The notes under the pieces were generated by a model. The model was given only the letters and a program-made list of their open reading frames with translations. It was not told the DNA's origin and ran no database searches. DNA of 64,000 nt from Amphibalanus amphitrite (lineage: Eukaryota > Arthropoda > Thecostraca > Balanomorpha > Balanidae), in contig NW_024881567.1 in the NCBI RefSeq assembly GCF_019059575.1, forward strand, positions 1,025,001 through 1,089,000. The letters are read 5' to 3'. The position numbers and the translations under genes are program-made. Of this stretch, positions 1,941 to 62,056 are shown one piece after another (position 1 is the stretch's first letter; every line of letters begins with the position of its first letter).

Positions 1941-2863
1941 ACATCTTCATTTTTAAAGCAATCAAGACGTAACAAAAAAAGGTTATACGTGATTCTACTT
2001 TGTCTATCAAATGGCCATCTCGGTTTTTTGAAAATGTTCGATTCTAGGACAATTTTTTTTCAAAAAACCGACTTTTTATGGGAACAAATTATAAAATCTT
2101 AAATTTTGAGTGTATCGAAAAAAACGGAATATATGTCAGAGAAGTGGTCTATGTGTACCTACATACCAATTTTTAGAAGAATCGGTTCAAAAATGTGGGA
2201 GTTATTCAAACTTTTATGACGTCACGACACACAAAAATTTTGAAAAATGAATTTTTTGGAAGTTCTAGACCTCGTACGGGAACAAAAATAGCACAATTCG
2301 ATTCGCCGTGAAAAACTGCATCAGATAGACACCTTAACAACCAACTACAAAATTTGACCTCACTTGACCTGACCTTGGCCTGACCTTGACCTGAAATTCA
2401 TCCAGAGGTGGTCCATATCACTTATTGAGTGTGCCTATTGAATTCTATGAGTAAAATGACCCATAAAACATGTGTCGCACATGCCCTTTTCTATATTTTG
2501 TTTTTGGTGACCTGACCTGACCTGACCTGACCTTGACCTTGACCTTTGAATGACATTGTATGCAACGAATATTGTCTTGGTAGTCTAAGAACACGTTTTG
2601 GGCAATCAGTCTCAGTCCATTCTTCGGCAGCTACGGTGCAAGGCCGATACTGTAGAAGCTTGCATTTTGTACCCTTGACCTGACCTCTGACTTACTTAAG
2701 CAAAAAAAAATTGGGCTCTTAAGATCTGCCTTGTTGAGAGCTTTCGATTGCCGTTTTCCCCGTCTTTCTACGACCAGCGGTTCGGAAGTTAGACAGGGGG
2801 GGGCAGAATCTGCCCCCCCCCCCAGCAGGGCGCGTATGGCTGAATAGCCCAGCGGGGCGCGGG
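1941..2863 (-). mobile_element. piggyBac-like non-autonomous element, truncated copy of the 60881-62056 family
   Basis: Read on the minus strand, it starts at TTAA (2864-2867) with CCCGCGCC and then a G-tract/CAGATTCTG/C-tract hairpin (about 2795-2822). It tracks the element at 60881-62056 through its TGACC-rich body, including the shared stretch around 2630-2690 versus 61060-61115. Similarity stops abruptly at 1941 against a poly(A) tail, so the other end is missing. No coding capacity. Confidence 0.75.
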
Positions 2864-2867
2864 TTAA

Positions 2868-4053
2868 CCCGCGCCCGGCTGGGGGTCCTGGATTTCCACG
2901 CCCTGCTGGGGGGGGGGTGTTTGAACACCCCCCCTTGTAACTCGGCTCCTGGGCCACGTAGCGATACGCAAAAGGCGGCGTTCGAAAGAGCGTCAAAAAT
3001 AATGACGAAATCACTTCGGTCAATTTTTTGGTCAGGTCAAAGGTCAGGTCACCAGAGGTCATTGAAGGCAAAATTTCGCCGATTTCCAGGTCGAATGTCA
3101 AAAATTTCCAATAAGCCAACGCATAACTCGGGAACCAATAGAGCTACAGCGCCGCGGAAAAGCGCATTCGATAGCCCTATTAACGCCCTTTCTGAGTAAT
3201 TCTCTCAGATTTGACCTAACTTCAACGGTTTTGCCTGCAGGGGGCAAAAACTGCAAAAATAGCCGATTTTTTCGGAAACAGTTTTTCTGCAATAACTTTT
3301 GACCCAGGCCTTGTACGAGCTTACTTCTACCGGCATCGTGTTCCTCTCGTCAAGACGCATCGAATGAACTATAACTTGACCTTGAAAGGTCAACTTGAAA
3401 ATTTGACCTCAGGTCAAGGTCATGACCTGACCGGAAAGGGTCATGTTGCATATCAGTCGATCCGTATCGTCGAGCTGAACACATCTAAGACGTTTTCATC
3501 GCTCTAGCATGCCTCTATTAAAAGTTATTTGCGAAACACTGTTAGATACCATTCGTGACCTAAGATGACCTCAGGGCATAAACAAGGGTCACGGACACCA
3601 TTTTCATGTTCTGTGTGTCTAAACCACTTGTAATTCGGTATTTGGGAGTGTTTATAATGTCTTTCGTCCAAAAGAGGCGCATTTCAATTTTCTCCCATTG
3701 ACTTATAATGGGGAGGTCGCAAAATTGACCTGACCTTAGGTCATCGATATCAAAATTCTGAGATATACATTTTGTACATGCTATTGCTCTTAGCAATCGC
3801 TGAAAGTTTCAAAGCGATTGGTCACTCGGTGTAGCTATGACAGACATTGAAATTTTATATGAGGTGAGGTCACTTCAAGTGACCTGGTGACCTGACCTTG
3901 AATGACCTTGGTCTGAAATTTTCACAACATGTGTAAAATTGATGTATGATAAGGTGTACCAAAAACGGCGGCGCTCCGCGCCGCCGTTTTTGAGATATTC
4001 GCGAAAAACCACAAGGGGGGGTGTTCAAACACCCCCCCCCAGCAGGGCGCGGG
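2868..4053 (+). mobile_element. piggyBac-like non-autonomous element, family A copy 1 (1186 bp)
   Basis: It is flanked by TTAA at 2864-2867 and 4054-4057. Its ends are CCCGCGCCCGGCTGGG and CCCAGCAGGGCGCGGG, an inverted repeat. TTAA target sites and terminal CCC/GGG are piggyBac hallmarks. Inside both ends lie G-tract/TGTTTGAACA/C-tract hairpins (about 2903-2935 and 4014-4040), and a GGCGGCGC stem lies near 3965-3993. The body is rich in TGACC/GGTCA. The copy at 13649-14834 has exactly the same length. No transposase frame is present. Confidence 0.85.
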
Positions 4054-4304
4054 TTAAATATATTCTGAATTCTGAATTCTGGATATCGGTCGCGTAGTGA
4101 TACATAATAACCAAGATTGACCATTGAAGATTTAGCGAGATTGATACATTTACATGAGCTATATTGAACGGCAGAGATGCATCTTTTCTGTGTAAGCATT
4201 GTCTAAATAGAGGATACTGCCTCGTTTGCATCACTTACATACATCCGTATTGACAGCGTCTGTCGCCGGTAACAGGCAAAGACGCGCGCGGCTGGTGTTA
4301 TTTT

Positions 4305-5307: not shown

Positions 5308-5337
5308 GTTATTTTCATCAAACGCATTACGCCAAAC

Positions 5338-5481: not shown

Positions 5482-5622
5482 TCTGTTTCTAGTGACACGC
5501 CTTAAATTGGTCACCGTGAATTCACCCACCCCGTTTCCCTGAAAATAGACGGTCAGATTCGCTCTAGATTCGCCAGAGACGGGATTGGGTCGCCGTTATT
5601 GCACCCGTTTTAGCGTATTTAA

Positions 5623-6119
5623 AGGGACTATCCCACCTTTAACATGGGGTTTGAGTTGAGATAGCCAAGTTTGCGGCGAGGTTCAGAAACCACTATCTAT
5701 CTAGGTTGCAACCCCCGCGGCCTCTTGGTGTTGAAGAAATTCGTTCCCTTCATTTGAAAATGGGCCTTGCACAAGGCCCTATCTTCAACATGGAGCGACC
5801 GTTAGTGTGACGTCACCTCGTTTAGTCATTCTGATTTAAATGGGTTTGTTCGTTGAAAAATCGCTTAAAACTTGGTCTGAACTTTGTTGTGGTGCCTACA
5901 GAGTAAAAAGAATCAGCTTTATGACAGTAATGCTGCCTGGGGAAGGAGGTAATTTTGGGCTGTGACGTCACATATTTGAATGTTTGTGTTTGGAATATGG
6001 GAAGCCTGAGATGTTTAATGAAAAATAAATGCCAGAAACGTGTTCCTGGTCATCCAATCTATAAAGTCGGGCACAATTTAACTGGTTTTAACAACATTTT
6101 AGAAGGTGGGATAGTCCCT
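5623..6119. mobile_element. TTAA-flanked MITE, family M1 copy 1 (497 bp)
   Basis: It is bounded by TTAA at 5619-5622 and 6120-6123, with terminal inverted repeat AGGGACTATCCCACCTT. A copy of identical length lies at 17199-17695. There the insertion sits inside a LINE ORF, and removing the element plus one TTAA restores the frame, which confirms the boundaries. It contains TGACGTCA cAMP-response-like palindromes. Non-coding. Confidence 0.9.
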
Positions 6120-6123
6120 TTAA

Positions 6124-6576: not shown

Positions 6577-9446
6577 GTCAGCAAGATCAGTGAAGGCGTG
6601 TTTGGAGAAACGGGGCTGATGAAGACTACTCCAATCACCATAAAGCTCGCTGAAGGCGCAGTGCCTAGCGCTGTGAATACAGCACGGAAAATTCCAATTC
6701 CTCTGTTAGAGGGAGTCAGGCGAGAATTGGAGCGCATGGAACAGCAAGGCATCGTGGAGACAGTGACCGAGCCCACTGACTGGTGCGCGCCTATGGTGCC
6801 GGTTCAAAAAGCCGACGACAGAGTGAGGATCACCGTTGACTACAAGAAACTGAATCAAGCCATCAAAAGAGAAGTGTACCCAATTCCAACACTGGAAGAT
6901 CTCACTTCAAAGTTCAACGGCGCGACTATGTTTTCAAAACTGGATGCCTCCTCAGGCTTCTTTCAACTGCCGCTTGACCCTGAAAGCTCACTGCTCACCA
7001 CCTTTATCACTCCTTTCGGACGCAAGGCCTTCACTAGACTGCCAATGGGCATAAGCCTGGGGCCCGAATGCTTTCAGCGGAAAATGCATGAGATGCTGAA
7101 AGACCTACCTGGCGTCCTGTGCTACATGGACGACATCGTATGCTACGGCGATGACAGCACACACGACGTCCGTCTGCAAGATGTCCTGAAGAGAATCGAA
7201 GAGTCAGGACTGCGATTAAACAAGAAGAAGTGCCAGCTGAAGCAAGAAGAAATCAAGTTCCTGGCCCCCTGGGTCTCCGGATCAGCAAGCACGGCATCCA
7301 GCCCGACGAAGAGAAGGTAGAAGCGATCACAAACCTCCCGGCTCCCAGAAACATTGAAGAGCTGCGGTCGCTCCTCGGCATGATCAACTATCTAGGCAGA
7401 TTCGTGCCTAACATCCAAGAAAACCTACGACCGCTCTATGATCTGCTAAAGAAAGATACTGCTTGGATGTGGACAGCGGCACAGCAGGATGCACTGGACA
7501 GAGTGAAGCATCTGCTGACATCAGCACCCGTGCTGGCCTTCTATGACCCGACAAAAGCAACCGTTGTCAGTGCCGATGCCAGCAGCTATGGTTTGGGAGG
7601 CTGTATACTACAAAGACATGGTAAGGAGCTCAAGCCAGTAGCATACTGCAGCAGAACGATGACAGAAACAGAGAGAAAATGGGCGCAGATAGAAAAAGAG
7701 CTTCTGGCGGCCACCTGGACTTGCGAGAAAATGCATATGTTTCTGGCGGGTTTGCCTGAGTTTGAGCTTCAGCTTGACCACAAGCCTCTGATTCCTCTAA
7801 TCAACTCGAGGAATCTGGTAGAGGCACCTCTCCGATGTCAGCGCCTCCTGATGCGACTGATGACGTACAATGCCCGCGCCAGCTACGTCCCAGGAAAACA
7901 GCATGTTCTTCCGGATTTTCTTTCAAGATTCCCAGATCGCACCAAGGAGGACGAAACAAGCTCCGTCATGGTCAGCGAGGTCCACCAGTACTGTGCAATG
8001 ATATACGAAGCGCTTCCAGCCACCCAGCAGCGTCTGAAAGAAATCAGCGAAGCCCAAGCAGCAGACAGCGTACTCCAACAAGTAGTGAGACAAACACTCA
8101 GCGGCTGGAAGGAAGGACTGAAGCACCACAGTCTTAGTGAATACTTTGCTGCAAGAGGACAGCTCACTGTTATCTACACCACATTCGGAAAGCTTCTGAT
8201 GCACGGCAGGCGTCTCGTGATTCCGCCAACGCTTCAGAAAGAGATGCTGCGACGTCTGCATGACGATGGACACTTTGGACTGCATAAGTCAAGAGAAAGA
8301 GCAGAACAATCTGTCTGGTGGCCTGAAATCAGCAATGATCTGAAGATCTATGTGACGCAGTGCTCCTTCTGCCAAATCAACTCACCCAAACAGCGCAAGG
8401 AGCCGCTCATCTCCATACCAGTTCCAGAGAAGCCGTGGTCCCACGTGGCAGCAGACATATGCCATTCTGGTGGTTCCATCTGGCTGGTAACCATCGACAT
8501 CTTCAGCAGATATTTGGAGATCCAGCGCCTTACCAATGTATGCAGCACAGGCGTGATAGCGTGTCTAAAAACACTGTTTAGTCAGCACGGGATTCCAGAT
8601 CTTCTGACAACCGACGGAGGTACACAGTTTACTTCTGCGGCATTCGAGGAGTTCAGGAAGTCCTACGGTTTTCAACATCGTGTGACTGATCCACACCACC
8701 CGTCGTCCAACGGAGCTGCTGAACGTGCGGTACGCACCGCTAAGTGGATCCTAAAGCAAAAAGACTGGCACTTGGCTCTCCTAAACTATAGAGCTACCCC
8801 CATAGAGGCTACTGGCTGTTCGCCTGCAAAACTGCTCATGGGACGCAACCTGCAAACTAGACTTCCGGTGGCACAAGCCGAGCAACATGAGTATCAAGCA
8901 GCTCGTGAGAAGGATGAAGAGGGGAAGAGGAAGATGGAAAAGTACTTCAACCAGCGGAATGGGGTTAGACTACTTCCAGATCTCAAGCCTGGTTACAATG
9001 TTCGCATGAAGACAGACAAAGAATCAGACTGGTCGGCGTCAGCGAAGGTTTTCAAGAAAGCAGGCCCAAGAAGCTACATAGTACAGAGCGGAGGAGCTAC
9101 TTACCGACGCAACCGTTGTCATCTAAAGCTCTGTGAGCATGAAGAGCCCAAGCACCAGCGCTCTCCGCCTCCAGCACCAGCCCGCGCTGCAACAAGATCG
9201 ATGAGCCCGGCACACCCACCAGCTCTGCTGCAGTCTCATCCGTCGCGTCGTGACCTGAAGGTTCCAGCACAAAGGGCACTCACTCCGCCGAGAAGCATCC
9301 AGACCAAAGAGACCAGACCTCCGAACGAAAGGCGGTCTTACACTCGGAGCAGAGCCGACAACAGGACAACGACTTCAGATGGTCATGAGGAGGTGAAATC
9401 GTCCTCTCCCAGAGTGACCCGCAGCGGAAGATGCTTCGGACCGTGA
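6577..9446 (+). pseudogene. Ty3/gypsy pol: reverse transcriptase, RNase H, integrase (5'-truncated, one frameshift)
   Basis: The open frame begins after a stop at 6574, with no start codon. Gag, protease and the first part of reverse transcriptase are missing. In order: the RT palm with FSKLDASSGFFQ and CYMDDIV (Y-M-D-D at 7123-7134); a frameshift near 7262 into the next frame; the RT connection and RNase H (VSADASSYGLGG, ERKWAQIEKELLA); an H-H-C-C zinc domain (HFGLH...CSFC, about 8270-8375); and the integrase core with Asp (AADICHSG), Asp (TTDGGTQFTS) and Glu (SSNGAAERAV). A basic, Pro/Ser/Arg-rich tail ends at 9446. In the family these enzymes copy and integrate the element. The frameshift and the lost 5' half make this copy dead. 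Confidence 0.92.
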
Positions 9447-13235: not shown

Positions 13236-13239
13236 TTAA

Positions 13240-15341
13240 CCGCGAGTTCCTGGGGGGGGGGGCGTTAAACGCCCCTACTTTTTTCGCCGGGCCATAGCAT
13301 AAAAACGGCGCGCCGCAGGCGCGCCAAATTTTTGGTACCTGTAGGGAATTTGTTGAAGTTTATTGTGACAAAGTTTCAAAAAAATCGGTTGGAATTTTTT
13401 TGAGATATCGAGGTTTTAGTGACGTCATGATTTTTGAGTTTTCGACCAAAAACGGTATATGTTCAAAAAATCATATAAAATCACAGAATAGACATACAGA
13501 CATGCCGTAAACGCCATTAGACTGCCAATACCATGAACAATCAAATGGCTATCTTCGATTATTGATTATCGTTCCGCATTTTCCAAAATCGTGAACTGAA
13601 TCTTGGCAATTTCTCGTGACTACTTCGCGACCATGATAGATGCATTAACCCGCGCCCTGCTGGGGGTCCTGGATTTCCACGCCCTGCTGGGGGGGGGGGG
13701 TGTTTGAACACCCCCCCTTGTAACTCGGCTCCTGGGCCACGTAGCGATACGCGGAAGGCGGCGTTCGAAAGAGCGTCAAAAATAATGACGAAATCACTTC
13801 GGTCAATTTTTTGGTCAGGTCAAAGGTCAGGTCACCAGAGGCCATTGAAGGCAAAATTTCGCCGATTTCCAGGTCGAATGTCGAAAATTTCCAAGAAGCC
13901 AACGCATAACTCGGGAACCAATAGAGCTACAGCGCCGCGGAAAAGCGCATTCGATAGCCCTATTAACGCCCTTTCTGAGCAATTCTCTCAGATTTGACCT
14001 AACGTCAACGGTTTTGCCTGCAGGGGGCAAAAACTGCAAAAATAGCCGATTTTTTCGGAAACAGTTTTTCTGCAATAACTTTTGACCCAAGCCTTGTACG
14101 AGCTTATTTTTACCGGCATCGTGTTCCTCTCGTCAAGACGCATCGAATGAACTATGACTTGACCTTGAAAGGTCAACTTGAAAATTTGACCTCAGGTCAA
14201 GGTCATGACCTGACCGGAAAGGGTCATGTTGCATATCAGTCGATCCATATCGTCGAGCTGAACACATCTAAGGCGTTTTCAGCGCTCTAGCATGCCTCTA
14301 TCAAAAGTTATTTGCGAAAAACTGTTAGATACCATTCGTGACCTAAGATGACCTCAGGGCATAAACAAGGGTCACGGACACCATTTTCAAGTTCGGTGTG
14401 TCTAAACCACTTGTAATTCGGTGTTTGGGAGTGTTTATAATGTCTTTCATCCAAAAGAGGCGCATTTCAATTTTCTCCCATTGACTTATAATGGGGAGGT
14501 CGCAAAATTGACCTAACCTTAGGTCATCGATATCAAAATTCTGAGATATACATTTTGTGCATGCTATTGCTCTTAGCAATCGCTGAAAGTTTCAAAGCGA
14601 TCGGTCACTCGGTGTAGCTATGACAGACATTGAAAGTTTTTATGAGGTGAGGTCACTTCAAGTGACCTGGTGACCTGACCTTGAATGACCTTGGTCTGAA
14701 ATTTTCACAACATGTGTAGAATTGATGTATGATAAGGTGTACCAAAAACGGCGGCGCTCCGCGCCGCCGTTTTTTAGATATTCGCGAAAAACCACAAGGG
14801 GGGGTGTTCAAACACCCCCCCAGCAGGGCGCGGGTTAAAGTCGAACTTTTTGAGCCAAACACGTACACATATGATAAAATGAATGTCAGCATCGTGTTCT
14901 ACGCCCCAAATTACACATAAAACGTGTGTCACAGGCTGCGAATATCAGTTTTGATTTTCGGGGATATGTGCGTACCCGGTTGACCTGACCTTGACCCTGA
15001 CCTATGCTTGACTGACCCCTACATGGAGCTGACACTCTTGTAGGCCTTATATGATTGATTGTGCACCGTTTTGACAGAGTTTATGACGAGAGGCGCCCAT
15101 TGCGAAGTCCTGAAGTCCATGCTACTAAAAGCCCGGTTTCAGGTGTTTGACCTGACCTTGACCCGACCTGTGACCTCAAAATTCAACTTTAAAGTCTCAT
15201 CTGAAGCGTCTCGTCGCGTTCTTTCGTTTGCCGCCTCGTGCGTTTCACTGCGCCTATTGGTTCTCGAGTTATCGGCTGGGGGCGTTTAACGCCCCCCCCC
15301 CCGCAAACGGTGGGTGGCGAAATACCCCAGCAACTGCCGGA
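13240..15341 (-). mobile_element. piggyBac-like element (outer), split by a nested family A copy
   Basis: TTAA at 13236-13239 and 15342-15345 flank degenerate ends, CCGCGAGTTCCTGGGG and the complement of CCCCAGCAACTGCCGGA. Subterminal G-tract/CGTTAAACG/C-tract hairpins occur at both sides (about 13253-13278 and 15277-15303), and a GGCGCGCC stem lies at 13305-13328. The 1186-bp element at 13649-14834 plus one TTAA interrupts it; without that it would be about 0.91 kb, like its relatives. The order of hairpin features suggests minus orientation. Confidence 0.7.
13649..14834 (+). mobile_element. piggyBac-like non-autonomous element, family A copy 2 (1186 bp)
   Basis: It is flanked by TTAA at 13645-13648 and 14835-14838, with ends CCCGCGCCCTGCTGGG and its exact complement. 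It is nearly identical to 2868-4053 along its whole length and is exactly as long, which suggests recent activity. It is inserted inside the older outer element. Confidence 0.92.
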
Positions 15342-15345
15342 TTAA

Positions 15346-16854: not shown

Positions 16855-17198
16855 ATGAATGATTGTCAAGTCTCCATGAGTATGGCTGATCTGAGGAAAA
16901 TTATTAGCCTTGAAGTTGAAGAACGCGTCGCTTGTAAAGTCAAGGAGATCGCAGAACAGCTATCATCTGACATGAACGCTATGATGCGCGGTGTTTTTGA
17001 AGAAATGGAAAGGTTGGGGAAACGCCTTAAAGACATTGAAGTGAAATGTAACGCCCTTGAGGAAGGTTCGGCTCAACTAGCTCAAACAGTGAACAAGGAG
17101 GTGAAAAGGATCGAACCGAGCGCAACTGTAATCGAAGTTGAACCAAACGCCACAGAGCAGAGAAGTCAGCGGGGCAACGAAAAGGAGCCAAGCATTAA

Positions 17199-17695
17199 AG
17201 GGACTATCCCACCTTTAACATGGGGTTTGAGTTGAGATAGCCAAGTTTGCGGCGAGGTTCAGAAACCACTATCTATCTAGGTTGCAACCCCCGCGGCCTC
17301 TTGGTGTTGAAGAAATTCGTTCCCTTCATTTGAAAATGGGCCTTGTACAAGGCCCTATCTTCAACATGGAGCGACCGTTAGTGTGACGTCACCTCGTTTA
17401 GTCATTCTGATTTAAATGGGTTTGTTCGTTGAAAAATCGCTTAAAACTTGGTCTGAACTTTGTTGTGGTGCCTACAGAGTAAAAAGAATCAGCTTTATGA
17501 CAGTAATGTGGCCTGGGGAAGGAGGTAATTTTGGGCTGTGACGTCACATATTTGAAAGTTTGTGTTTGGAATATGGGAAGCCTAAGATGTTTAATGAAAA
17601 ATAAATGCCAGAACCGTGTTCCTGGTCATCCAATCTATAAAGTCGGGCACAATTTAACTGGTTTTAACAACATTTTAGAAGGTGGGATAGTCCCT
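17199..17695. mobile_element. TTAA MITE, family M1 copy 2 (497 bp), in LINE ORF1
   Basis: TTAA at 17195-17198 and 17696-17699; ends AGGGACTATCCCACCTT inverted. Same length as 5623-6119 with only a few differences. It splits LINE ORF1 at Ser-Ile-Lys, and excision with one TTAA restores the frame. Confidence 0.93.
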
Positions 17696-17827
17696 TTAAG
17701 ATGGATGCGGTCCCCTCAGAGTTAACATCCAGCAGTGACAGTGATTGGACTGTAGTCACGTCCAGACGCAAGAGAAAGGCCACAGGCTTAAGACCTCGTG
17801 GTGCACTGCTGCTCGGAGGTGACTATA

Positions 17828-24979: not shown

Positions 24980-24983
24980 TTAA

Positions 24984-25861
24984 CCCTCGCCCGTGGACGG
25001 CATTTCGCCATCCTTTCCAGTGGAGGGGGGGGGATACAACCCCTTCTGCCGTTTTGAAACGCGTCGTCGTAGAGCTTAGCGGAAAAACAGCGTATTGCTC
25101 TCGACGAGAGCTCGCGATTGCGCATATTACTTTTGACCATAGGTCAATATTTGACCTAGGTTTGGCAGGTTAAAGATCAAAGTTCGGGAAAATCGGCATT
25201 TTTAACTTTGCGCGCCTGTAGCGTCGCCGCTATGGCAGATATCGTCATGGAATTTTCACTATCGTATTTCTGGATGAATTTGGTGCATTTTGGTGTATAG
25301 TTTGTCACATTTTACGCGATAACTTCCGGGGCCACAGCGCCCGGAAGCCGGCGGGGTCCCGTTCGCGCCCCGGGTGGTCGAAAATGCCGTCTGACAGTTG
25401 GGGTCGGAAATGTAATCTAACCTGTCGGCGACTTCTCCTTGACCCTGAGACGCTCAATAAACCAAGTGCCCGAGCTTTATTTGGCCGTCAGATTCGAATT
25501 CAGGGCCAAAAATTACCGCCGGAAAGTCAAACTTCAAGAGGTTACCACAGGTCACTGACCTGAACTAGACCTGACCTGACCTTGACCCTACATAGGCCAA
25601 TGGAGGGTGTGTCAGTGCCATGTCAGTCACTTTTGACCCAAACAATGCCAAAGTGTAACCGATATCATCGTTAAAAGCACGAAAAACTACGATTTCGTGC
25701 AAAATCGGCCTGATCTTGTTACCTTTGTGACGTCATAGCTCTGTTACCTGACCTGACCCGGTCATTTTTTCGCCAAAAGTTGCGCAAAGGATGGTCCATA
25801 AGGTAGCCGGAAAGCTGGCGGCACTACGTGCCGCCTTTTTTCGCTATTCGTAAAAAACCTC
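24984..25861. mobile_element. piggyBac-like element, right end lost
   Basis: The left end is TTAA (24980-24983) then CCCTCGCCCG, with a G-tract near 25023. It has the TGACC-rich body and a GGCGGCACTACGTGCCGCC hairpin near 25817-25836, matching the 3' hairpin of its relatives. The final G-tract hairpin, GGG end and TTAA are missing; LINE sequence starts abruptly at 25862. Confidence 0.75.
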
Positions 25862-30450: not shown

Positions 30451-30457
30451 GTATTAA

Positions 30458-37231: not shown

Positions 37232-37291
37232 CCAGAGCGACCTCTAGTCGCGTCATCACCAGAATCGGACAAAGAAAAGAGGAAAGTAAAG

Positions 37292-42100: not shown

Positions 42101-42539
42101 GTGGAAGATAAACTGAGCAGAGCAGCAGCGTCGTTTTATGGAATTTGATTTTCACCCATAGGCCTATCTTTGATCTTTTATCTATCTTTTTACGGCCGAA
42201 CCCCCAGCGAAACCCTATATAGGGTTTCAAAGAGCTCACACTCAAGATGTGATATTTGCGAAAAGGTAGTGTGTCTCTGACATATACTGCAACTCCTCCG
42301 CCCAACCTTGTCTTGTTTTTTAGTAATGGTGCATGAAGACCTTTCAGAGAGTAAAGACTGGAATGTATAGTGGTGTCAAGTTTTGTTTCAGATAGTGCTA
42401 GTATGCTAATATCGTTAATGTCAACGTAGTTTTGAAGCTCCTGTAGCCTTTCGTTGGCAGTGATGGAGTTGATATTAATTGCGGAGATGTTAACACCATC
42501 GCTTCGGAGCGTACCAGTTACTGGTGGCATTGTGGGCAC
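39184..42539 (-). pseudogene. LINE ORF2: endonuclease plus reverse transcriptase, several frameshifts
   Basis: ATG-type start at 42539. The AP endonuclease (42539-41835) has ISAININSITANERL, ILALSETKLD (catalytic Glu), GGGVAVYVRD, YLPPN and VLVGDFNAG. A frameshift near 41837 is followed by the linker (DHFPLLIS, KPWLTAELRREMRKRDRLF). More breaks lie between 41236 and 41079. The RT start reads GLDSSKATGSDGVPAKLI, PTQWKKATVKPIFKG and YRPISLLP (41079-40771). After another break near 40770 comes MPQGSILGPL and FFADD (catalytic Asp pair at 40386-40381). The C-terminal domain holds KHLGVTIS, YVQPHLDYCDSIFD and a CRCGAAAENNEHFLLICP zinc motif, ending at 39184. Endonuclease and RT are both recognisable, but at least three frameshifts kill it. 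Confidence 0.88.
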
Positions 42540-43346
42540 GGGGAAGGCGCTTCGGCTGGCGGCGGGTGGTGAGAGAACAGTTTACATAAAACAATGTGCA
42601 ATGTGGGCTATGGCTAAAACTTTTGGCAGATGACACTGATTTTGAGAGATGAGCAAGTACAGGGACCCGCAGTTGCTTCTGTACACACTAGTATTTCAGC
42701 GTATTCTTTGCCTGTGGCACCGTTGGAGGCGAATTGGGAAACGATTGTGTGCTTATTAAAACCACCATCTGAAGGGCTTTAAACTGATGTGCTGCTCTCC
42801 TAATTCAGTGAACTTTTTATGGCTATATCAGCAAAACATTGTTTTCAGCGCTTTTTCCTGCCCCATTCCTTCTGAAACCTGGAACCGCTTATTCCATTCA
42901 CTCCTGCCATCTGACGATGGTCGTGCTGATTACAAGTTCCGGCGCTAGTTACTGCTCCAGTTTTGCACCCGGCACAAACTCAGGCGGCACCGGGCCGTGG
43001 CTCGACCATGGGGAGGGTCGGACCGAGCCGACTGCCTGGGGCGCGGTTAGATCGGACGCCCTGCTGGGGAAGGGGACGGGAGTGAGGGAGAGTGGAGGAG
43101 GTGGTCACGTGGTCCGTCTAAGCTCGCAGACGACCTGTCCTGCGCCCAGCTATGTTCCGTGATCCAAAATGGCACGAGAGCTGTGGAATGCTTGGAGGGG
43201 ACGCTTCGAAAGCGAACTTCAGCAGCACTAATTTACCTTATTCTGTGGAGATAAATTAATATTATCTTAATGCAGAAAAAATTGTTTGTCCAAGCTGTAT
43301 AAGCTGTATCTTTTTAAAAGTTGTAAATATAATTATTTTTAGGGAC
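42540..43346. other. upstream flank of the LINE, no gene seen
   Basis: The first part may be LINE 5' UTR. GTACAGGGACCCGCAGTTGC at about 42658 recurs inverted near 48016-48036. A GC-rich stretch at 42960-43150 has no recognised coding content. Confidence 0.35.
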
Positions 43347-43350
43347 TTAA

Positions 43351-44253
43351 CCCTCGCCCGCACATGGGGGGGGGGAGGGGGGTTGCCACCCCCAGGCAGT
43401 CTTTCTGCTCTGCACTCAACATTTTTAGAGCTAGAAAGCTGATTTTTCGTATAGCTGCTCGTCTATCCTTTCTTGATGTCCACTGAAAATTTCAAGTTTC
43501 TGTGATTTTTGGTTTCGGAGATATGACCTTGTTTTCAGGTCATGTCATGACCCAAATGGCCAATTCTCAACATCTTGCGTTTGCCATGGGCCTTGTGAGC
43601 TTTTGACACCCTGATTTCGGCCTTTTTTGCCAGTCTTACCTCCCACCTATCATGGAACATGTTGTTCGACGATGTACAGGGGTCAAGGTCAGGGTCAAGG
43701 TCAACCTAGGTCATCTAAGATAATTGCGTTTTAGGCAAGCTGAATTTACTTTTTGTGAAGTTTTTTGACTGCATTTTTGGTAAAAGCTTCTCAGATCATG
43801 ATTTCATGTGATATGGACCCAAAAACAATCGGTGCACACATCAGTATACACACAGACACACACAGACATACAAACACATATAATTGACCTTGACCTAACT
43901 TGACCTGAAATGACCTCAGCAGCAAAATTCTGGTCGGATAGTGTGACAAAGAGGTTCTAGCTGGCTTGGCACCAGAAAACAGCATCGTCATCGGTATTTG
44001 ATAAGCAGCGCACCTGATATCCAACGGTGACCCAAAACAGCAACATTTTTTAGTTTGACCTGACCTGGAAGGTCAATGACTGACCTGAGAAGGTAAAACT
44101 GGGTATCATTGGATTCGTCTCTTCCCAAAGAATCTTTTTGGTCTTTACTGCTAAGCTCTATCTCCAACAGGAACGAAATGGCGCGGGGGGGGGTGGCAAC
44201 CCCCCCCCCCCATGTGCGTTCTAGGATGGGAAAATGGCATGTGCGGGCGAGGG
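43351..44253. mobile_element. piggyBac-like non-autonomous element (903 bp)
   Basis: TTAA at 43347-43350 and 44254-44257. A perfect 16-bp terminal inverted repeat CCCTCGCCCGCACATG. Subterminal G-tract/TTGCCA/C-tract hairpins are mirrored at the two ends (about 43366-43393 and 44183-44211). TGACC/GGTCA runs lie in the body. No transposase. Confidence 0.92.
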
Positions 44254-44345
44254 TTAAAGGTTTCGTATACACAGTGAATTGTGTTACAATAAGCCGTTTC
44301 GCTGTTATGGTTACTAACTGAAGAGTTATCCTTTTTTTCTCACAG

Positions 44346-48172: not shown

Positions 48173-48176
48173 TTAA

Positions 48177-49060
48177 CCCTCGCATGTGTAGGGGGGGGGT
48201 CGGATGGACCCCCCCCCATGGTTTTTCGCGAATAACTCGCGTAAAAAGCGGCCGATCGCGACGAAACTTTCAGTACCCTCGCATTGATCAATTTTACACC
48301 TACCCTGAAAATTTCATGACCCTGACCCAAATGACCTTTGACCTGTGACCTCTTTTCCGAGACCATGTTTGGCCGGAATCGCGATTTCGCGTATGTCGGC
48401 TCGCACTAGCCGCGTGTTTGCAAGCTTTTCGTGGTTTCAAACGTTTAAACATGTGATTTGATGTTACTCCCGTGTGTGTCAAGGTCACCCGAAGGTCAGG
48501 TCAGGTCATTGACCTTTGGTGACCTCGGGTGACCTCGGTTCACTTTTTCGAGTTTTACATGTTTCTAGGATAGTTTTTGGAGCTGAATTCGAATTTAGCA
48601 ACCATTTGAACATTTACGAAGTAGTTTTGGTGACTTCGTAACATGTTACGAAGCTGTCAGAGGCGGTTGACACGTACTACGAATACCCGTCACGACGCCT
48701 ACTGGTTGACCTGACCTGACCTGACCCGACCTGGTCTAAATGCTTCAAGACATCATCTGTGATCAAAACTAACACGATATTCGTGATCAGCACCCCGAAA
48801 AACCCCTTAGCAGCCACACTTTACGACTTTCTAACAGGTCCCGATTTTCCCGGTTTTCGGGTCATTGACCTGACCTGGAAGGTCAACCAATGACCTAGGA
48901 CCTTAAAATTGGGTATCATCGGCTTCCTCTCGTCACGGGCAACACGCTGGTTTTTTCCGCGAAGCTCTAGCTCGATCAGGGGCCAAACGGCAAGGGGGGG
49001 GGTCCAACCGACCCCCCCCCTACACATTAGAAGCTGGCAAACGCCGCACACATGCGAGGG
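48177..49060. mobile_element. piggyBac-like non-autonomous element (884 bp)
   Basis: TTAA at 48173-48176 and 49061-49064. A perfect 13-bp terminal inverted repeat CCCTCGCATGTGT. Subterminal hairpins: a G-tract, then TCGGATGGA (left) mirrored as TCCAACCGA (right), then a C-tract (48191-48219 and 48994-49020). AGGTCA/TGACCT runs at 48495-48540 and 48707-48735. Confidence 0.92.
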
Positions 49061-49064
49061 TTAA

Positions 49065-51086: not shown

Positions 51087-54000
51087 TTAGCTAGGGTATC
51101 TCACTGGTGGCTTTGACACCCGTCCAGACTGTGTCACATATCCGACCGGTGACTGTAACGGCCGATCTATGCCTGTCTTACTGGACACTCTTAAGAAAAT
51201 GGGAGGTGGTATACTCTCCTTAGATATGATGTCGGTGTCTGGCGGCGTGTGCACCGTGTCCTCTGGCTTCCTCTCTCGTCGGTCGTATGTAGCTGGTTCT
51301 TCTGCAGCATCGTCTCTCTTCCGCACCTTGACAGGTTTCAGGTGATTGTGATGGACGTTGACTTCTTTCCCTCCTGGCATGCTGACTCTGTATGTCACTC
51401 CTTCGGCATGATGTTCCTGCCTCTGCAAGACAGTTGCTGGTCCTTTATATCGCAAGGCTAGCTTGCGCTTGCCACCAACGTTACTGGTGTGGTCCAACAG
51501 CCATACCCTCTGACCTATCTCGTACTGTATTTCCCTCGTAGATTTCTCGTGCGTCTCCGACATGTAACGAGCGGCCTTGCCGATGTTCTCCTCGACCTTG
51601 TCAAAGGCGTGTCTAAGCTGACGCAATTTGTTTTCGACATAAGTGTCGACAATCGACACTTTGCCTTCCACGCCAAACATTTCGTCGACTGGAAGGCGGG
51701 CCTCACGTCCGTGCACCAGGAAGAATGGCGTAAACCCGGTAACCGAATGTTTTGACGTGTTGTAGGCGAAGGTGAGAGACGCCAAGTGATCGTCCCAGTC
51801 GGACCCGCATGGTTTCAAGAATTTTGACGACATGTCTTTGAGCGTGCGGTTAAATCGTTCTACCATACCGTCGCTCTCCGGTCGTTATGGTGACGTTCTA
51901 GTCTTCACGATACCCAACCGCCTACACAAGGACTGGAAGACGGCCGATTCAAATTGTCGACCTTGGTCACTATGGAGCCTTTCAGGAACGCCTTGCCGTA
52001 GAACCATGTCCAGTAAACAATCGGACACCGTCTCGGCCGTCTGGTTGGGCATGGCGTAAGTGTAGACATACTTGGTGAAGTAGTCCATCACCACCAGGGC
52101 ATACCTGTTTCCGCGTACTGACATCGGCATCTCGGTAATGTCAATTGCGACTCTCTCGAATGGTCTTGAATAGGCGTCGGTGCGAAGAGAGGCCTGTAAC
52201 CGTGGTGTTGGTCTGCTTCGGCGCTGGCAGGCTTCACACGTTTCGCAGTGATGGACCACGTCCTTTCCCATCCCGGGCCAGAAGAACCTGGCCGCTACTT
52301 TCTCAAGCGTGCGGTTGGTGCCCAGATGTCCTGCCGTCTTGTCGTCGTGCAGCATGCTCAGAACTGTTTCCCGATACGTGCGGGGCAGGAGAATGACTAG
52401 ACAGTCTCTTTCTTGGTGTTTCAGTTTCATGACGCCTTGTTCTATCGTCAGCTGGTCGAACAATCGAGCCATTATTCTAAGGTTTCGATTTCGTTTTCGA
52501 ATTTCCTTCTTCGGAGGGAGTCGTCCTGTCATCAACCACTCCTTCACCTCTCCAAGAATGGGGTCAAGGTCCTGCTCACGTCTGAGCTTTTCCGTGTTCA
52601 TCGCGTCTGTCACAGCCTCGTGGTCTGCGGTCATGGCTTCTTCGACCTCAGGATGAAAATCGGCGTTCTGTCGTGACATGGCATCGGCGTTGCCATTGTC
52701 ACTGCCCTTTCGGTACTGAACGTCAAAGTCGTATGTGCTGAGTTCGATTGCCCATCTGCCACGTCGCCCCGTGGCGTCTCCGTCGACATTGATCGAGCGG
52801 GGAATGTTCTTGAGCGGTTTGTGGTCCGTCATCACCGTGAACGTTGTGGCAGCCAAATATGGGCGAAAATGTCTAATAGCCCATACAATTGCCCAAAGTT
52901 CTTTATCATACGTCGGCCATCGACGTTCACTCTTGTTGAGCACCTTGCTGGCGTAGGCGATCACCCTCTCATCGCCGTTGATGGTCTCCGTCAACACCGC
53001 TCCGACTGCAGTATTGGAGGCGTCGGTTGCAACCTTGAACTCGCCCTTGCAGGTTGGCAGGGTGAGGATTGGCGCCGACGTCAGCTTCGTTTTAGTGCTT
53101 TCAAAGCTTTCCACCAGCTCTTCAGTCCATTCTACAGTACCCTTTTTCTCAGCAGCTTCTCTGATGGGTCGCACGAGGTCAGAATAGTTGGGCACGAATC
53201 GCGAGTAGTATCCTGCGAGCCCTAGAAAACTCTTCAGCTCTTCGGCTTTCTGTGGTCGAGGCCAGTGACGCACCTTCTCTATGTTTGCTGGGTCTGGCTC
53301 CACACCGCTCTTCCCCACCTTGTGTCCGAGGAATACTACCTCGTCGCGGGCTAGACAGCACTTCCTTGGCTTTAGTTTCATCCCTGCTGTCCTGATCCTT
53401 TGGAAGACCTCCTCCAGGTTCTTGAGATGATCGTCTTGATCCTTTCCGAAGACAATAATGTCGTCTATGTACACCAGGCAGCTTTTTGAGTCCATTCCAG
53501 CCAGCACTAGTTCCATCAGTCGTTGGAACGTGGCTCCAGCGTTCTTGAGGCCGAAAGGCATAGACCGGAAGTGGTGCAGGCCCTTTCCCGTGCTGAAAGC
53601 GGTTTTCTCTCGGTCTTTTTCAGCGACATCAACCTGCCAGTAGCCTGAGGCCATGTCGAGGGTGGAGAACAGGCTTGCCCCCGCGAGGCTGTCGAGGTTG
53701 TCATCCACCCTCGGGAGAGGGACTGGCAGACTTTGGGTGACAGAGTTCACTGCTCGAAGATCGACGCAGAATCTGAAACTGCCGTCTTTTTTCTTGGCCA
53801 GAACGATGGGTGAGCACCAAGGGCTGGAACTCTCCTCGATTATTCCCTCTTTCAACATCTTTTCCTTTTGTCTTTCCACCTCTTCTCTTAGTTTCATTGG
53901 GATCCGTCGTGGCCTTTGTCGGATCGGAGCCGCGCCTCCAGTTTCGATGTGATGTTGTAGAAGCTTTGTTTTTCCAATGTCGGACTCTCCTGTGCTGAAG

Positions 54001-55823
54001 ATATCCTGGTATCGTGACACAAGTTGTGTTAGCGAGGTCTTGCCACTCTCTGAAAGGGCAGTAGACTCGAGTTTTAGTTCGCTTAAGAGATCATCGAGCG
54101 TCCCTGCACTGAGTTCAGCTGAAGCCGCTGAAGAGCTCGGGACGTCGTACATACCCTTGCCATTTTCTTGAATAGAGTACAGTGTACCGATTTCTGTGCC
54201 TGGAGGGATCGTTACTGCTTTGCCCCCGATGTTGGCGACCTGAATCGGCACGGTTGCCTCGCTCGTCACTTCTGTAACTAAACGAGGGACCCTCCACTCT
54301 TGGCTGCTCTCAACTGAGTGAGGTTCTAGAACACCCTCCCAAGTGGCTTCTTTAGTGATTTTAACGCCTCCATCTGGGATCTCGACCTCGGCCTGAACGA
54401 GGGTCTGAGACCTAGCGGGGATGGTGACTGAGGCACAAGTGACCACCCTTGCTCGTAGCGGTCGTAACTCAGAATATGTTGGTAAAGGAATCTCGACGTT
54501 CCCCACTCTGAAAACCCCTGCCCTGTCATCTAGCACTGTTTTGTGCTGGCAGCAGAAGTCTCGGCCGAGAACGACCTGGTAGATCAAGCCTGGAATGACC
54601 AACATAGGCTGGATGAACTGCGAGGTTTGTATCGAGAACGACACTTCTGCTTGTGTGGTGACCTGTATTTTCTGCCCGTTTGCCTGCGTTATTGTTCCAA
54701 AATTTCCTTTGTGGGACGCTCCTTTCTGTACAGCCGCTCGGGCGAATTCTTGTCCAATCATTGACGCATCGGCTCCGGAATCAACGAGGGCCCATACACT
54801 GCGTCCTTCGACTTCGATTTTGATCACTGAAGCGCGTTTGGGGCTTGCTTCTTGACCAGGCACTGCTGTAGTGTTCCCAACAGCGCCAGAATTATCGCGT
54901 GCGGGGCTCGAGGGAGCGATGCCCCCTGCTGCGACTGGCGTTCTCCAACATTCGTGAAGCGCGTGGCCGTGCCTTCCGCAACCCTGGTAGGGAATACCGG
55001 GCGGAATCGCGCTCGGTGCTGCCCTCGGGGCAACGGACCGTGTTGTCCGTTTCTGTCGGTTTGAAAACCGCGGACAATCGCGTTTGAAATGGGTGGTATC
55101 GCCACACAGGTAACAAACGCCTCGTTTACTGTCGGTTGGTTTGCAGTGCTCGGTCACCTGGACTTTCATTTCATTCAACTCACTCCGGAGTTCTCCAAGG
55201 ATGGTCAGAATATCTGGTGCCTGTCCACCCTCAATGGGTTGCGTTTCTTTAGCCGAAATTGCCACCGTCGTGTCATGACCAGCGGACGCCCGCATAACGG
55301 CGAGAGTGAGGTCCTTTTCCCAAAGTCTTTGGACGACTTCCTCCGCTTTTTGAAGCGACAGCACAGTGTGGTCATTGTGCAGCTTCTCTTGAAGCTTAAG
55401 ATCGCTCAGACCACACAGGAAGTGATCTAGCGCTATATGATCCACCTGTTCACTGGATAACCCCGGGTGTGCCAGGCTTGTGAGTTTTCGGACGCGATCA
55501 GCGAATGATTCTATATTCTCTTCAGGCAGTTGACGGATAAAACGCAACTTTGCCCGAGCCCGTCGCGTGTCGCAGCTAGATCCAAATTTATTTTGTAGGG
55601 CCCCCTTAAGTTCCTTGTAGTCGCTCCTGGCTCCTTTGTCCAAGTTCCCACAAACGTCCAAAGCAGCACCATCCAGCAAGTCGAGCAGGGCAGTTGCTAG
55701 TTTTGTCTTCTCCAAGTCACCAAAACGCGTCTCAAAACGGAAAATCCACGTTTCCCAATTTTCCTCCTCGCGTCCGCTAAATTTTGTTGTGCTGTGAATT
55801 TTTGAGTACAGTTCGTTCGACAT
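51087..55823 (-). pseudogene. Ty3/gypsy Gag-Pol polyprotein, one in-frame stop
   Basis: ATG at 55823 (MSNELYSKIH); the frame runs 1578 codons plus stop, broken only by TAA at 51885-51887 (residue 1313). Domains in order: capsid-like Gag (about 1-200); zinc knuckle CYLCGDTTHFKRDC (237-250); a second Cys/His cluster (about 281-292); protease with VDSGAD (about 347); RT with STLDMASGY and VYIDDI (about 785); RNase H with ATDASN (about 931); H-H-C-C zinc domain (1159-1199); integrase with Asp in AIDITEM (about 1228) and HSDQG (about 1286). The stop falls where this family usually has Tyr, before the catalytic Glu in GMVERFNRTL. The last part (from 51866) holds that motif and the C-terminal domain. 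Gag and Pol share one frame, so no frameshift signal is needed. Confidence 0.93.
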
Positions 55824-55849
55824 TTTGGGCAGTGTATGAACGACGACTA

Positions 55850-56030
55850 ATAAATATGATCGTATCGTCCAACGATACGGTATGCAATGACCAACGGGTA
55901 ATTTGAAAATCGTGTCGTGCAACGACAACGCTATATAGCCCTATGATCGTATCGCCCAACGATACGTTATGCAATGACAAAACCAGATAATTTGAAAATC
56001 GTGTCTTAAACGACCACGCTATCTGTGCTT
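55850..56030 (-). repeat. tandem duplication in the Ty3/gypsy 5' leader
   Basis: Two copies of a unit of about 85 bases, near 55858-55940 and 55943-56025. Each holds a GATCGTATCG / CGATACG inverted repeat and GCAATGAC, AATTTGAAAATCGTGTC. They lie in the untranslated leader between the primer-binding site and the gag ATG, where packaging or translation signals would be expected. Confidence 0.85.
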
Positions 56031-56869: not shown

Positions 56870-58435
56870 TCCTACCCTGAAACTACTGGGCCGATCGTAA
56901 AATTCAAACGGCATCTGATAGCCCCGGAAAAATTGTCGAGCGAAACCTAATGTCATTGACCTCGAGGTCACCGATGACGATGACGATAATGTCATTGAGA
57001 AGCTTCTCACATACCAGTGGGGCAAACTGTGGTCAAATCTTCCATTTTTGGAAGCCTTTCATTTTTGGAAGGACCTTCCATAAATGGGTATGCATTTTCC
57101 AAACATGGAAGGCTTCCGAAATTGGAAGGCCTAATCTCCGTGTTCCCAACTGTGATTCCCATCCTTTGATTTAAGTTACGGCCTTTTTAAATGTGTAACA
57201 TTAATAGTTGATTTTGCCATTTATGATCATTGATATAAGGAGAAGCAGCAGTGCTAGTGTTGGTAATACAGGCATGCTATGTCAATGTACATAGTGATAT
57301 AATAGCATGATGTCCTGGTGCACTGCTCTCTTTTTCTACTTCTAGAGGACACATAGAAATTCAGAAGAGAAAACAGCTGGTCAATAACCAACCAGGAGGA
57401 ACACTCCTATAGTCCTGACAAAAAAAAGGTTTACATTAAACTTACTACCCCTCATATAAATTGAAGATTCATGCTCCTTCGATAGAAAGTAACACGAAAA
57501 ACAGCGTACCAACGCCTATTTAATTCGTCACATATTCCGGGAAAACATTGAAAAATGACGAGACTTCCACCCAAATGTTTAGCAAAAGCCTTAAATATTT
57601 GAAATCAACCACGCAATATGCTAATAAATGCAGAAAACAGCAACAAATACATGTTTTACTCGCCACTACCCTCCCGGGACCCCCGCACACACTGATGAAC
57701 TACTCTAGCAAGTTTAAGCCCAATATCTTCAAAAATAGCCAAGTTATTTGCATTATTGTAAAAAACTTACAATTATATATTTTTTCAAGACCATTTTTCA
57801 GTACGTTTTTGACATCGTACAGCAACATAAATGGCACTATCGTGTTCCTGAGCTCAAACTGCATCTGATAGCCACTTTTTTTTGTTAAATGTCATTTTCA
57901 AAATTTAACCTTTTCTGACCTGAAAGTAACCTGACCTCCGGTAAATTCAGCTGAAAATGACCTCAAATGACGCAGACGACATTGTTTTCGAAATCTACGA
58001 GTAAAATGGACCATAAAACATGCGTCACGTGACCAATTTATTATATACAATTTTCGTGACCTAGGATGACCTGGCCTTGAACTGAAAAAAAAATCGAAGT
58101 AAAAGTTCGCTACCCTCAGGGTATCTAAGGCATATATCTAGGAGTGCGCAAACCAAAAATGAGCCTGATTGGACTTGTCAGCCGGCGGTCAGATCCTAAA
58201 TTGTGAACAAGCAAAAATGCAGACAATTTTTACTTTGACCTGACCTGTGACGTCATTAGTGACCTCGAAGTCTATGAAAATAGGTTTCGTTCGACAATTT
58301 TCCCAGGGCTATCAGTTGCCGTTTGAATTTTGACGCTCAGCCCAGTAGTTTCGGAGATAGGACGGGGGCTCTGGAGAGCCCCCCCCCCCCCCCCCCGTCA
58401 CTCGCGTTATGGAAAATACCCCAGACATGCGCGGG
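56870..58435. mobile_element. TTAA element(s) of the piggyBac-like group, left end lost
   Basis: The right end is GCGCGGG then TTAA (58436-58439), after a C17-type run (58380-58396) and TGACC-rich sequence. The left part (56875-56985) is an inverted copy of 58265-58370 (AAACTACTGGGC, ATTCAAACGGCA, GATAGCCC), but lacks TTAA and CCC. A third partial match lies near 57845-57880, so more than one element may be fused. At 57035-57135, TTCCATTTTTGGAAG-type short palindromes cluster. Confidence 0.6.
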
Positions 58436-58599
58436 TTAATAAGTTCGAGCACAGCTCTTCATCAGAATACAAAGTCAAAAATGTCACGATAAAAATCCAA
58501 TCTTTGACTGCATAACTCATTGCAAAAATATTTCCCGCCATACATTTTCACCGACGACCGATTGGACACCGACTGGTCTGCGAAACAGCGCCTCGTCTA

Positions 58600-58781: not shown

Positions 58782-58785
58782 TTAA

Positions 58786-59290: not shown

Positions 59291-59294
59291 TTAA

Positions 59295-59930: not shown

Positions 59931-59934
59931 TTAA

Positions 59935-60876
59935 CCCTAGAACGCCTAGGGGGGGTTGTATCAACCCCCCCCCTGAGGTTTTTTCGGAGTGCACGCTAAA
60001 CGGCTTGTCGTAGCGGTCTGAAATTTTCAATACCCTCTGGGGCAACCTTTGCGCATCTTTTGCCGAAAAAAAATTGATCGGGTCATGTCAGGTCACGGAG
60101 TTATGACGTCATAAGAGGTACGGCCTCCGGCCGACAGTTACCAAACGTGTGCGCCGAATCCCTAGGTTTTCTGCCGGTGATATCCACATTGTTTGATGGA
60201 TCATGATGAAACTTCCCATGCATGTTGGGGCAAGCATTGGCTATCGTGTGGTGCAAGAAAATTGACCGGGTCAGGTCAGGTCACGGAGCTATGACGTCAC
60301 AAGAGGAACAGCGTCCGGTACTATTTTTGAAAAGCGCCCGAACCACTATTTTGCTAATTCTTGTCACCTCAATGGGAATATGCAGCAATATTAGCTTCTA
60401 TAGGGAGCAAATGGACCTCCCAAATCCAAAAATACAATCAGATTTCAAAAATTTAAATTTTGATTTTTTCGAATTTCTGCCGCCGACTGTGACCTTGCCG
60501 ACTTCCGGCGCTCCCAACGCGCCATTTTTAGAGCTAGGGAAACGAAATACATACCAAACGATAGAGAATTGATCAAGGAACACGATAGTGAAGGTTTCAA
60601 GTCGATATCTCCCACCGTTTTGCCGCAATCGCCGCGGAAAGTTGAAAAAGTTTGATTTTTTCGGAAAATTTGACCTTTGACCGGTCATAAGTAGGTCAAA
60701 TGTTGACCTAGGACCAAAAAATATACCACCAATCGCGAGATCTCGTTGAGAGCAATCCGTTGGTTTTTTCCGCTAAGCTCTACGACCTTCCGTTTCGAAA
60801 CGCCAGGGGAGGGGTCGTAACAACCCCCCCCCCCCTGGTCGTTCGTGTTATGAGAAATGGCCTGGTCGTGCGAGGG
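59935..60876. mobile_element. piggyBac-like element, CCCTAGAACG end (942 bp)
   Basis: TTAA at 59931-59934 and 60877-60880. The left end CCCTAGAACGCC resembles the start of the canonical piggyBac terminal repeat; the right end is CGTGCGAGGG. Hairpins G-tract/TTGTATCAA/C-tract (59948-59972) and G-tract/TCGTAACAA/C-tract (60807-60837). It shares its right TTAA with the next element. Confidence 0.82.
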
Positions 60877-60880
60877 TTAA

Positions 60881-62056
60881 CCCGCGCGGGGCTGGGGTCT
60901 CCAGCCGAACGCGCGGGGCTGGGGGGGGGGTAAATTTTACCCCCCCTGTTATCTCCCGAACTAACGGTCCGATTTGGAAAATTCAAACGCCAATCGAAAG
61001 CTCTCATCACGAACTACTAAAAACATGTACTTAATTTAAAGTTTGAGGTCAAGGTCAAGGTCAGGTCAAGGGTACAAATTGCAAGTTTCTACAGTATCGG
61101 CCTTGCACCGTAGTTGCCGAAGAATGGAGTCATGGACTGAGACTGATCGCCCAAAACGTGTTCTTAGGCTACCAAGACAATATTCGTTGCATACAATATC
61201 ATTCAGAGGTCAAGGTCAAGGTCAGGTCAGGTCAGGTCACGTCACCAAAGAACAAAATATAGAAAAGGGCATGTGCGACACATGTTTTATGGGTCACTTT
61301 ACTCATAGAATTCAATAGGCACACTCAATAAGTGATATGGACCACCTCTGGATGAATTTCAGGTCGAGGTCAGGTCAAGGTCAGGTCAAGTGAGGTCAAA
61401 TTTTGAAGTTGGTTGTTAAGGCCTAAAAAGGTGTCTATCTGATGCAGTTTTTCACGGCAAATCGAATGGTGCTATTTTTGTTTCCGTACGATTTCTAGAA
61501 CTTCCAAGAAAGTCATTTTTCAAAAATTTTGTGTGTCGTGACGTCATAAAATTTTGAATAACTCCCACATTTTTGAACCGATTCTTCTAAAATTTGGTAT
61601 GTAGGTGCACATAGACCACTTCTCTGACATATATTCCGGTTTTTTCGATAGACTCAAAATTTTGGATTTTATAATGATTTTCCCAAAAAAGTCAGTTTTT
61701 TGAAAAAAAATTAGGCCAAAATCCAAGATTTTCAAAAAACCGAGATAGCCATTTGATAGACAAAGTAAAATTACGTATAACCTTTTTTGTTACGTCTTGA
61801 TTCCTTTAAAAATGAAGATGTTAGCGGCGTTTGAACTTTTGCCGTTTTTGAGGCGAAAATGACGAACATGACGTCACTAAAACGTCAATTTCTCAAAAAT
61901 TTTCCGACGGATTTCGCTCAAATTTTCAGGGAACGTGTCAAATTGATGTAAGAAAAGGTACTGAAAGTTTGGCGGCGCTGCGCGCCGCCGTTTTTCAGAT
62001 ATCGCAAAAATTCGCGAGGGGGGGTAAAATTTACCCCCCCCCCAGCCCCGCGCGGG
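60881..62056 (+). mobile_element. piggyBac-like element, family B (1176 bp)
   Basis: TTAA at 60877-60880 (shared) and 62057-62060. Ends CCCGCGCGGGGCTGGG and CCCAGCCCCGCGCGGG, inverted. G-tract/TAAATTTTA/C-tract hairpins at both ends, and a GGCGGCGC stem at 61971-61993. Repeated AGGTCA hexamers at 61046-61070 and 61206-61245. The copy at 1941-2863 is its inverted, truncated relative nearly 60 kb away. Confidence 0.9.

Follow-up and report, generated by a model that had tools for sequence, protein, structure and literature searches.

The region analysed here, hereafter the window, is a 64,000-nt stretch of Amphibalanus amphitrite contig NW_024881567.1 (positions 1,025,001–1,089,000; genome 807.6 Mb). 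It harbours TTAA-flanked elements in which the terminal inverted repeat (TIR) is followed by a G-run, a short core and a C-run. Very probably these elements are piggyBac transposons of the Trichoplusia ni (T. ni) type, autonomous as well as non-autonomous, whose end palindromes are putative docking sites for the cysteine-rich domain (CRD) of the transposase. The assignment is based on the palindromic cores, their two-peak spacing from the TTAA, the asymmetry between a short and a long end, a constant polarity relative to the gene, and autonomous copies which combine such ends with a T. ni-type CRD motif. This directly observed anatomy is a G-tract form, rich in families, of the end architecture known from piggyBac, and we infer that the CRD binds to it.

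Palindromic cores and the asymmetry of the ends

Genome-wide, the pattern TTAACCC-N{6,22}-G6-N{4,16}-C6 is matched 18,401 times in forward direction, whereas its reversal is matched 3 times; on the reverse strand, the count of 60,477 (control 0) is inflated by overlapping matches of one end listed repeatedly and was set aside. Cores were analysed in the first 100 of the 18,401 matches listed, of which 85 were kept after 15 overlapping repeats had been dropped. These 85 matches contain 30 different cores, a number of which are variants within a family. A preliminary description of the window was right in claiming that cores differ between families. Complementarity was found for 60 of the 75 outer pairs in the 25 cores of 8–11 bp, whereas chance would give 21.6 (letters shuffled) or 26.0 (3′ halves swapped), and none of 20,000 trials reached 60. 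This test, in which related cores were counted apart, is independent of the search since the pattern fixes the runs and not the core. The cores are family-specific palindromes. The G-runs span 6 to 17 residues in the same 85 matches, G7 being the commonest (19/85), and run lengths vary between copies inside one family. The lengths of the G- and C-runs thus look like slippage noise, but the cores do not. The preliminary description had rejected random G-runs, which is correct for the palindromic, non-slippage cores and seems not to hold for the run lengths, whose slippage-like variation it had itself named as a finding that would count against it. Likewise, the arms it gave as G7–12 and C7–12 are real as blocks, with a wider measured range of 5–18. 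No Rfam family reached its gathering score anywhere in the window.

Within the window, a block of G≥5, core and C≥4 is present within 80 nt at 16 of the 41 TTAACC anchors of both strands, at a distance from the TTAA of 16–19 nt at 7 ends and of 43–46 nt at 9, the two ranges covering 16 of 16. Among the 15 strict blocks on the plus strand (G≥5 and C≥5), 13 adjoin a TTAACC end, the zone counted as near amounting to 5.7% of the window. The fourteenth, at 15278, accompanies an end at 15345 that is mutated to TTAATCC; the fifteenth, at 12219, was not located at any element end.

A larger sample of 285.6 kb, made up of the window plus 56 further loci (30 loci fetched with the short-end pattern, 15 after overlaps were dropped), yielded 59 unique ends, 29 at 14–19 nt from the TTAA (short ends), 28 at 43–46 nt (long ends), one at 63 and one at 79 nt; the 16 ends of the window itself are free of this selection by pattern. 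About 27 bp are inserted in the long end, and the insert duplicates the inner TIR. Across 16 families or subfamilies, the palindrome of the long end is displaced inward relative to that of the short end by an offset of 25 bp in one, 26 in three, 27 in 11 and 28 in one, and over the 8 bp immediately preceding the G-run the two ends match at 105 of 128 positions compared with 46.3 by permutation; in the offset set, the pair of lineage D (see below) stems from two loci, the short end of lineage C is the intact TTAA form from another copy, and the ends of lineage F are damaged. Offset and match together indicate that inner TIR and palindrome are both duplicated in the long end, an asymmetry missed by the preliminary description.

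The outer bases of the core agree between the two ends at 90 of 102 positions in 17 pairs, 16 of them from one element each and the D pair from two loci. After three near-duplicates had been left out, 74 of 84 outer bases agree in 14 pairs against 31.3 permuted, a value reached in none of 20,000 permutations. Covariation of the ends, as previously claimed, is therefore real; the related claim that the other end carries the same core applies exactly to 8 of 17 pairs, while in 9 of 17 the core centres differ and the outer triplets are mostly kept. Taken alone, covariation is weak evidence because TIRs have common ancestry. In lineages A and F, inverting the short-end core gives the long-end core but for one change, which is what recognition of the palindrome by a dimer of two-fold symmetry would allow. 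The L071 long end at 4127 reads TTAACCCGCGCCCCGTT... with the core CCATTTTGG.

Some further words recur in the vicinity of the palindromes. GGTTTTT lies no more than 20 nt from the palindrome at 16 of 30 short ends compared with 0 of 34 long ends, for example inward of 62060 and 4057. Deeper in the short ends, several families contain a second palindrome (GGCGGCGCGCAGCGCCGCC or, in a different family, GGCGCGCCGCAGGCGCGCC), together with words that they have in common, for instance AAACTTTCAGTACC. AGGTCA words, partly repeated or everted, are found tens of nt inside the palindrome in many of the long-end families listed; they resemble nuclear-receptor half-sites.

Autonomous copies and their transposases

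The genome contains at least 116 matches to PF13843. Six T. ni-type lineages (A–F) possess G-palindrome ends facing the gene. Lineage A (C33, C431) carries the palindrome at both ends, as does lineage B (C44, C1173), of which a further copy, C171, has one damaged TTAA, its other end being cut by the locus edge. Both ends were also found in lineage C (C778), with a damaged short-end TTAA, and in lineage F (C702), again with damaged TTAA; lineage D (C412, C1318) is known by its long end and lineage E by its short end. An end is thus present on each side of the gene in A, B, C and F, and in every end found the short one is positioned 5′ and the long one 3′ of the gene. In T. ni piggyBac, the left end (LE) is located 5′ of the gene. 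Adjacent to the G- and C-arms, the half-sites are TTG in B and C, CCA in A and E, TC in F and CG in D.

The Pfam domain DDE_Tnp_1_7 was detected in A, B, C and E, the four lineages scanned. A search with protein B returned T. ni-type copies and relatives of 33–100% identity and one remnant piece of 30%, the other matches listed having 26–28%. The best solved-structure match of both lineages A (E 1.3e-56) and B (1.9e-76) is T. ni piggyBac (6x67), the alignment running through the CRD with the Cys/His positions aligned to the end. The second match of A and B is piggyBat (9c0f), whose alignment ends ahead of the CRD; a piggyBat-like CRD was rejected for both on account of the better 6x67 match and the 9c0f alignment without CRD. 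The CRD pattern CxxC..CxxC-x4-CxxH..CxxC is common to all six lineages, D and F being C-terminal pieces.

Six contrast lineages (L031, L032, L035-38/43, L041, the L044 group and L057), for which both ends were found, lack a G-palindrome over the outermost 100 bp at each end and have a C-terminal pattern other than the T. ni-type CRD. Where ends were found, the G-palindrome accordingly accompanies the T. ni-type CRD in 6/6 lineages against 0/6 with the other pattern. The top-scoring transposase loci were considered as a source of the G-ends and rejected, their TIRs being others and lacking G-palindromes where both ends were found. L031, the sole contrast lineage compared with solved structures, matches piggyBat best. 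L031 and L057 have a non-G palindrome centred at bp 24.5, at one end each; at the other 10 of the 12 contrast-lineage ends tested, palindromes were no better than in shuffles.

Elements of the window

Elements were identified by scanning for G-run/core/C-run blocks, by TTAA-anchored pairing and by reading all TTAACC/GGTTAA sites of the window (Table 1). The tally of nine clear elements plus two degenerate ends agrees with the earlier count of at least eight. Position 1941, previously taken as an element end, is not one; the element concerned is recognisable solely by its long end at 2867. Complete elements have TTAA on both sides, and a terminal CCC...GGG inverted repeat is present except at the lineage A short end (TTAACCTT) and the mutated window end at 15345. 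The ends of the 950-bp element are those of autonomous family B at both sides, apart from run lengths and one C-run base. This match and the autonomous copies with like ends in the same genome confirm that the elements belong with piggyBac, as had been proposed. Adjacent elements abut with one TTAA in common at 2864–2867 and 60877–60880, as if one element had inserted at the target site of the other.

Table 1. Palindrome-bearing elements and ends in the window (window coordinates)
Feature	Position	Strand	Ends, palindromes and cores	Found by
Long end of element ending at 2867	palindrome 2796..2823	-	core CAGATTCTG read inward; left end not found	site reading
F1 element, 1194 bp	2864..4057	-	long end 2864, palindrome 2908-2934; short end 4057, palindrome 4015-4040; core TGTTTGAACA at both	pairing
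GAGTTGCT-family element, split by nested F1	13236..15345	+	short end 13236, palindrome 13252-13275; long end 15345, palindrome 15278-15302, core CGTTAAACG	site reading
F1 element, 1194 bp, nested in 13236..15345	13645..14838	-	long end 13645, palindrome 13689-13717; short end 14838, palindrome 14798-14821	pairing
Degenerate long end (TTAACCCTCGCCCGTGGA...)	24980..25043	+	G9-ATACAA-C4 at 25025-25043	site reading
Element, 911 bp	43347..44257	+	short end 43347, palindrome 43366-43393; long end 44257, palindrome 44185-44211; core TTGCCA, in other copies TGGTTGCCA	pairing
Degenerate end	45776			site reading
Element, 892 bp	48173..49064	+	short end 48173, core TCGGATGGA, 48191-48217; long end 49064, core TCGGTTGGA, 48994-49020	pairing
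Long end	58364..58439	-	core CTCTCCAGAG, palindrome 58364-58396; other end of element not found	site reading
Non-autonomous copy of family B, 950 bp	59931..60880	+	short-end core TTGTATCAA, 59949-59973; long-end core TTGTTACGA, 60811-60835	site reading
Element, 1184 bp	60877..62060	-	long end 60877, palindrome 60921-60946; short end 62060, palindrome 62018-62043; core TAAATTTTA	pairing

Besides these, the window contains two 505-bp TTAA-flanked elements (5619–6123 and 17195–17699) sharing the first 75 and last 75 bases and having a different TIR (TTAAAGGGACTATCCCACCTT); ends similar to theirs occur at 30454 and 31027. The stretch 29119–30342 is a repeated block, rich in TTAA and containing numerous inverted repeats. 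Retroelement reading frames are located at 6577–9446, 37232–38584, 39184–42581 and 51087–55940, in which Pfam identified RNase H and integrase (7155–9446), integrase (37232–38584), reverse transcriptase (39184–40770), and gag to integrase (51885–55940), respectively.

A putative docking site and its alternatives

The closest known system is T. ni piggyBac. Its ends are described as LE35/RE63 (RE, right end), RE bp 34–63 being near-identical to LE bp 7–35; a CRD dimer binds a palindrome at bp 17–33, the CRD-bound internal repeat being a 19-bp palindrome, and the wild-type transposase needs the unlike LE/RE pair for full transposition (PMC7351741). The asymmetric layout was termed enigmatic, and a two-dimer model was proposed (PMC7351741). 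The A. amphitrite elements share with it the TTAA flanks, CCC ends, DDE_Tnp_1_7, the Cys/His pattern of the CRD, a subterminal palindrome at both ends and a long end which repeats inner TIR plus palindrome, the offset being 25–28 bp here and 28 bp according to LE35/RE63 (PMC7351741). By simple arithmetic, a 13-bp TIR plus G7 places a GGGG-9-CCCC block at bp 17–33. The A. amphitrite elements differ from T. ni piggyBac in the variable G-run/C-run arms, the many half-site families in one genome and the very large number of ends.

On these grounds we propose the following scenario. Inside each TTAA-flanked TIR, the palindrome consisting of G-run, triplet, a 3–4 bp centre, complementary triplet and C-run would be occupied by the cognate transposase, whose C-terminal cross-brace zinc finger (CRD) would dimerise on it. 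The short, gene-5′ end (LE) would present the palindrome directly behind the TIR, and the long, gene-3′ end (RE), in which inner TIR and palindrome are repeated about 27 bp inward, would provide the site for a second transposase dimer; the synapse would then join two unlike ends. The triplet beside the G/C arms might serve as family-specific half-site and the centre as spacer, with run lengths left to slippage. Half-site specificity and the assembly of a transposase tetramer are likewise what we infer. A code linking CRD and half-site is suggested by the sequences, although CRD identities do not sort by half-site.

Several observations weigh against this scenario. Three of the 25 cores (CCTCAGGAG, AGTAAATTTTA and AGTTTTTG) have at most one third of their outer pairs complementary. 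Lineages D and E are each represented by one end only, and a T. ni-type remnant at C53 (L076) shows no recognisable G end in 5.6 kb. Pfam zf-Tnp_2 was not reported in A, B, C or E and appeared only in the non-G lineage L057, just under the cut-off. The CRDs of F and C are 52% alike with different triplets, those of A and E, which share CCA, 44%, and those of D and E, which differ, 46%. Finally, a G-run of 6 to 17 shifts the palindrome centre relative to the TIR, whereas the centre is fixed in T. ni piggyBac.

Three alternatives have to be considered, the first two of which the preliminary description had put forward as selected structures. An improbable one is a selected DNA or RNA hairpin or cruciform, formed by pairing of the G arm with the C arm around a loop closed by the core; such a folded end would be recognised or would aid excision or replication. 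Consistent with it, the arms pair in single-stranded DNA foldings of 6/6 window ends, 3/6 with z below -3, and cores compensate between families. However, the remaining three folds have z of -0.87 to -1.54, and the arm lengths are unmatched, with a tendency for one arm to be short where the other is long (Spearman -0.34, p 0.058 for 32 short ends; -0.43, p 0.012 for 34 long ends; 15 overlapping loci had been dropped here as well). Moreover, a stem requires pairing and not one half-site at both ends, yet the half-site is shared and kept while centres drift, which ancestry may explain in part, and the position and the offset of about 27 bp are those of a known protein-bound layout. A hairpin is possible, accounting for less than recognition by the transposase does.

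Even less probable is that the ends act as a G-quadruplex (or i-motif) signal for some protein of the host or of the element, in the way that Lia3p acts on the A5G5 tracts flanking DNA that a piggyBac-derived enzyme deletes in Tetrahymena. A long G-run is present at every counted end, and in Tetrahymena G-tracts are tied to a domesticated piggyBac transposase (PMC6547420). On the other hand, some families, such as B at its short end, have by reading a single G-run instead of four, inter-strand quadruplexes being conceivable all the same; a quadruplex requires neither C-run nor palindromic core, and the Tetrahymena tracts sit outside the deleted DNA (PMC6547420). That slippage homopolymers arose without selection inside ordinary TIRs, the ends being alike through ancestry only, is equally implausible: it conforms with run lengths differing copy by copy within a family and with TIRs common to both ends, but slippage generates neither the core palindromy, nor the spacing peaks and offsets across divergent families, nor differing centres beside kept half-sites. 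Among the options previously offered, a transposase-recognition code thus fits best.

Related arrangements are known from other systems. In piggyBat of Myotis lucifugus, subterminal imperfect palindromes are also found, one shown to be bound by a CRD dimer, but the CRD fold is another and the palindrome repeat is on the left end only (PMC11707139); piggyBat rather resembles the non-G lineages such as L031. The coral CMITEs are likewise TTAA elements tied to piggyBac with interiors more alike than TIRs across families; they are about 100 bp long with an estimated copy number of about 1600, and the accessible part of the report describes no G-palindrome (PMC2872659). The Tetrahymena A5G5/Lia3p/Tpb2p system similarly has G-tract inverted repeats near the cut sites of a piggyBac-derived enzyme; apart from the outside location of the tracts, it differs in that the part of the paper at hand describes no palindrome (PMC6547420) and in that the elements studied here encode their own transposase. 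Of 8 papers that contain any of four TIR words, none is on transposons according to its title.

Tentatively, and with considerable doubt, the genome might be regarded as a natural library of a palindrome code, in which diversified T. ni-type CRDs each read their own triplet at both ends. Small elements would retain a shared interior while exchanging the terminal recognition module, and would so parasitise different transposases. The offset of 25–28 bp, kept in 16 diverging families or subfamilies, provides evolutionary support for the two-dimer model as presented in PMC7351741. The many half-sites and transposases constitute ready pairs for learning how a CRD selects its DNA, and might possibly be of use for gene-insertion tools which do not interfere with each other.

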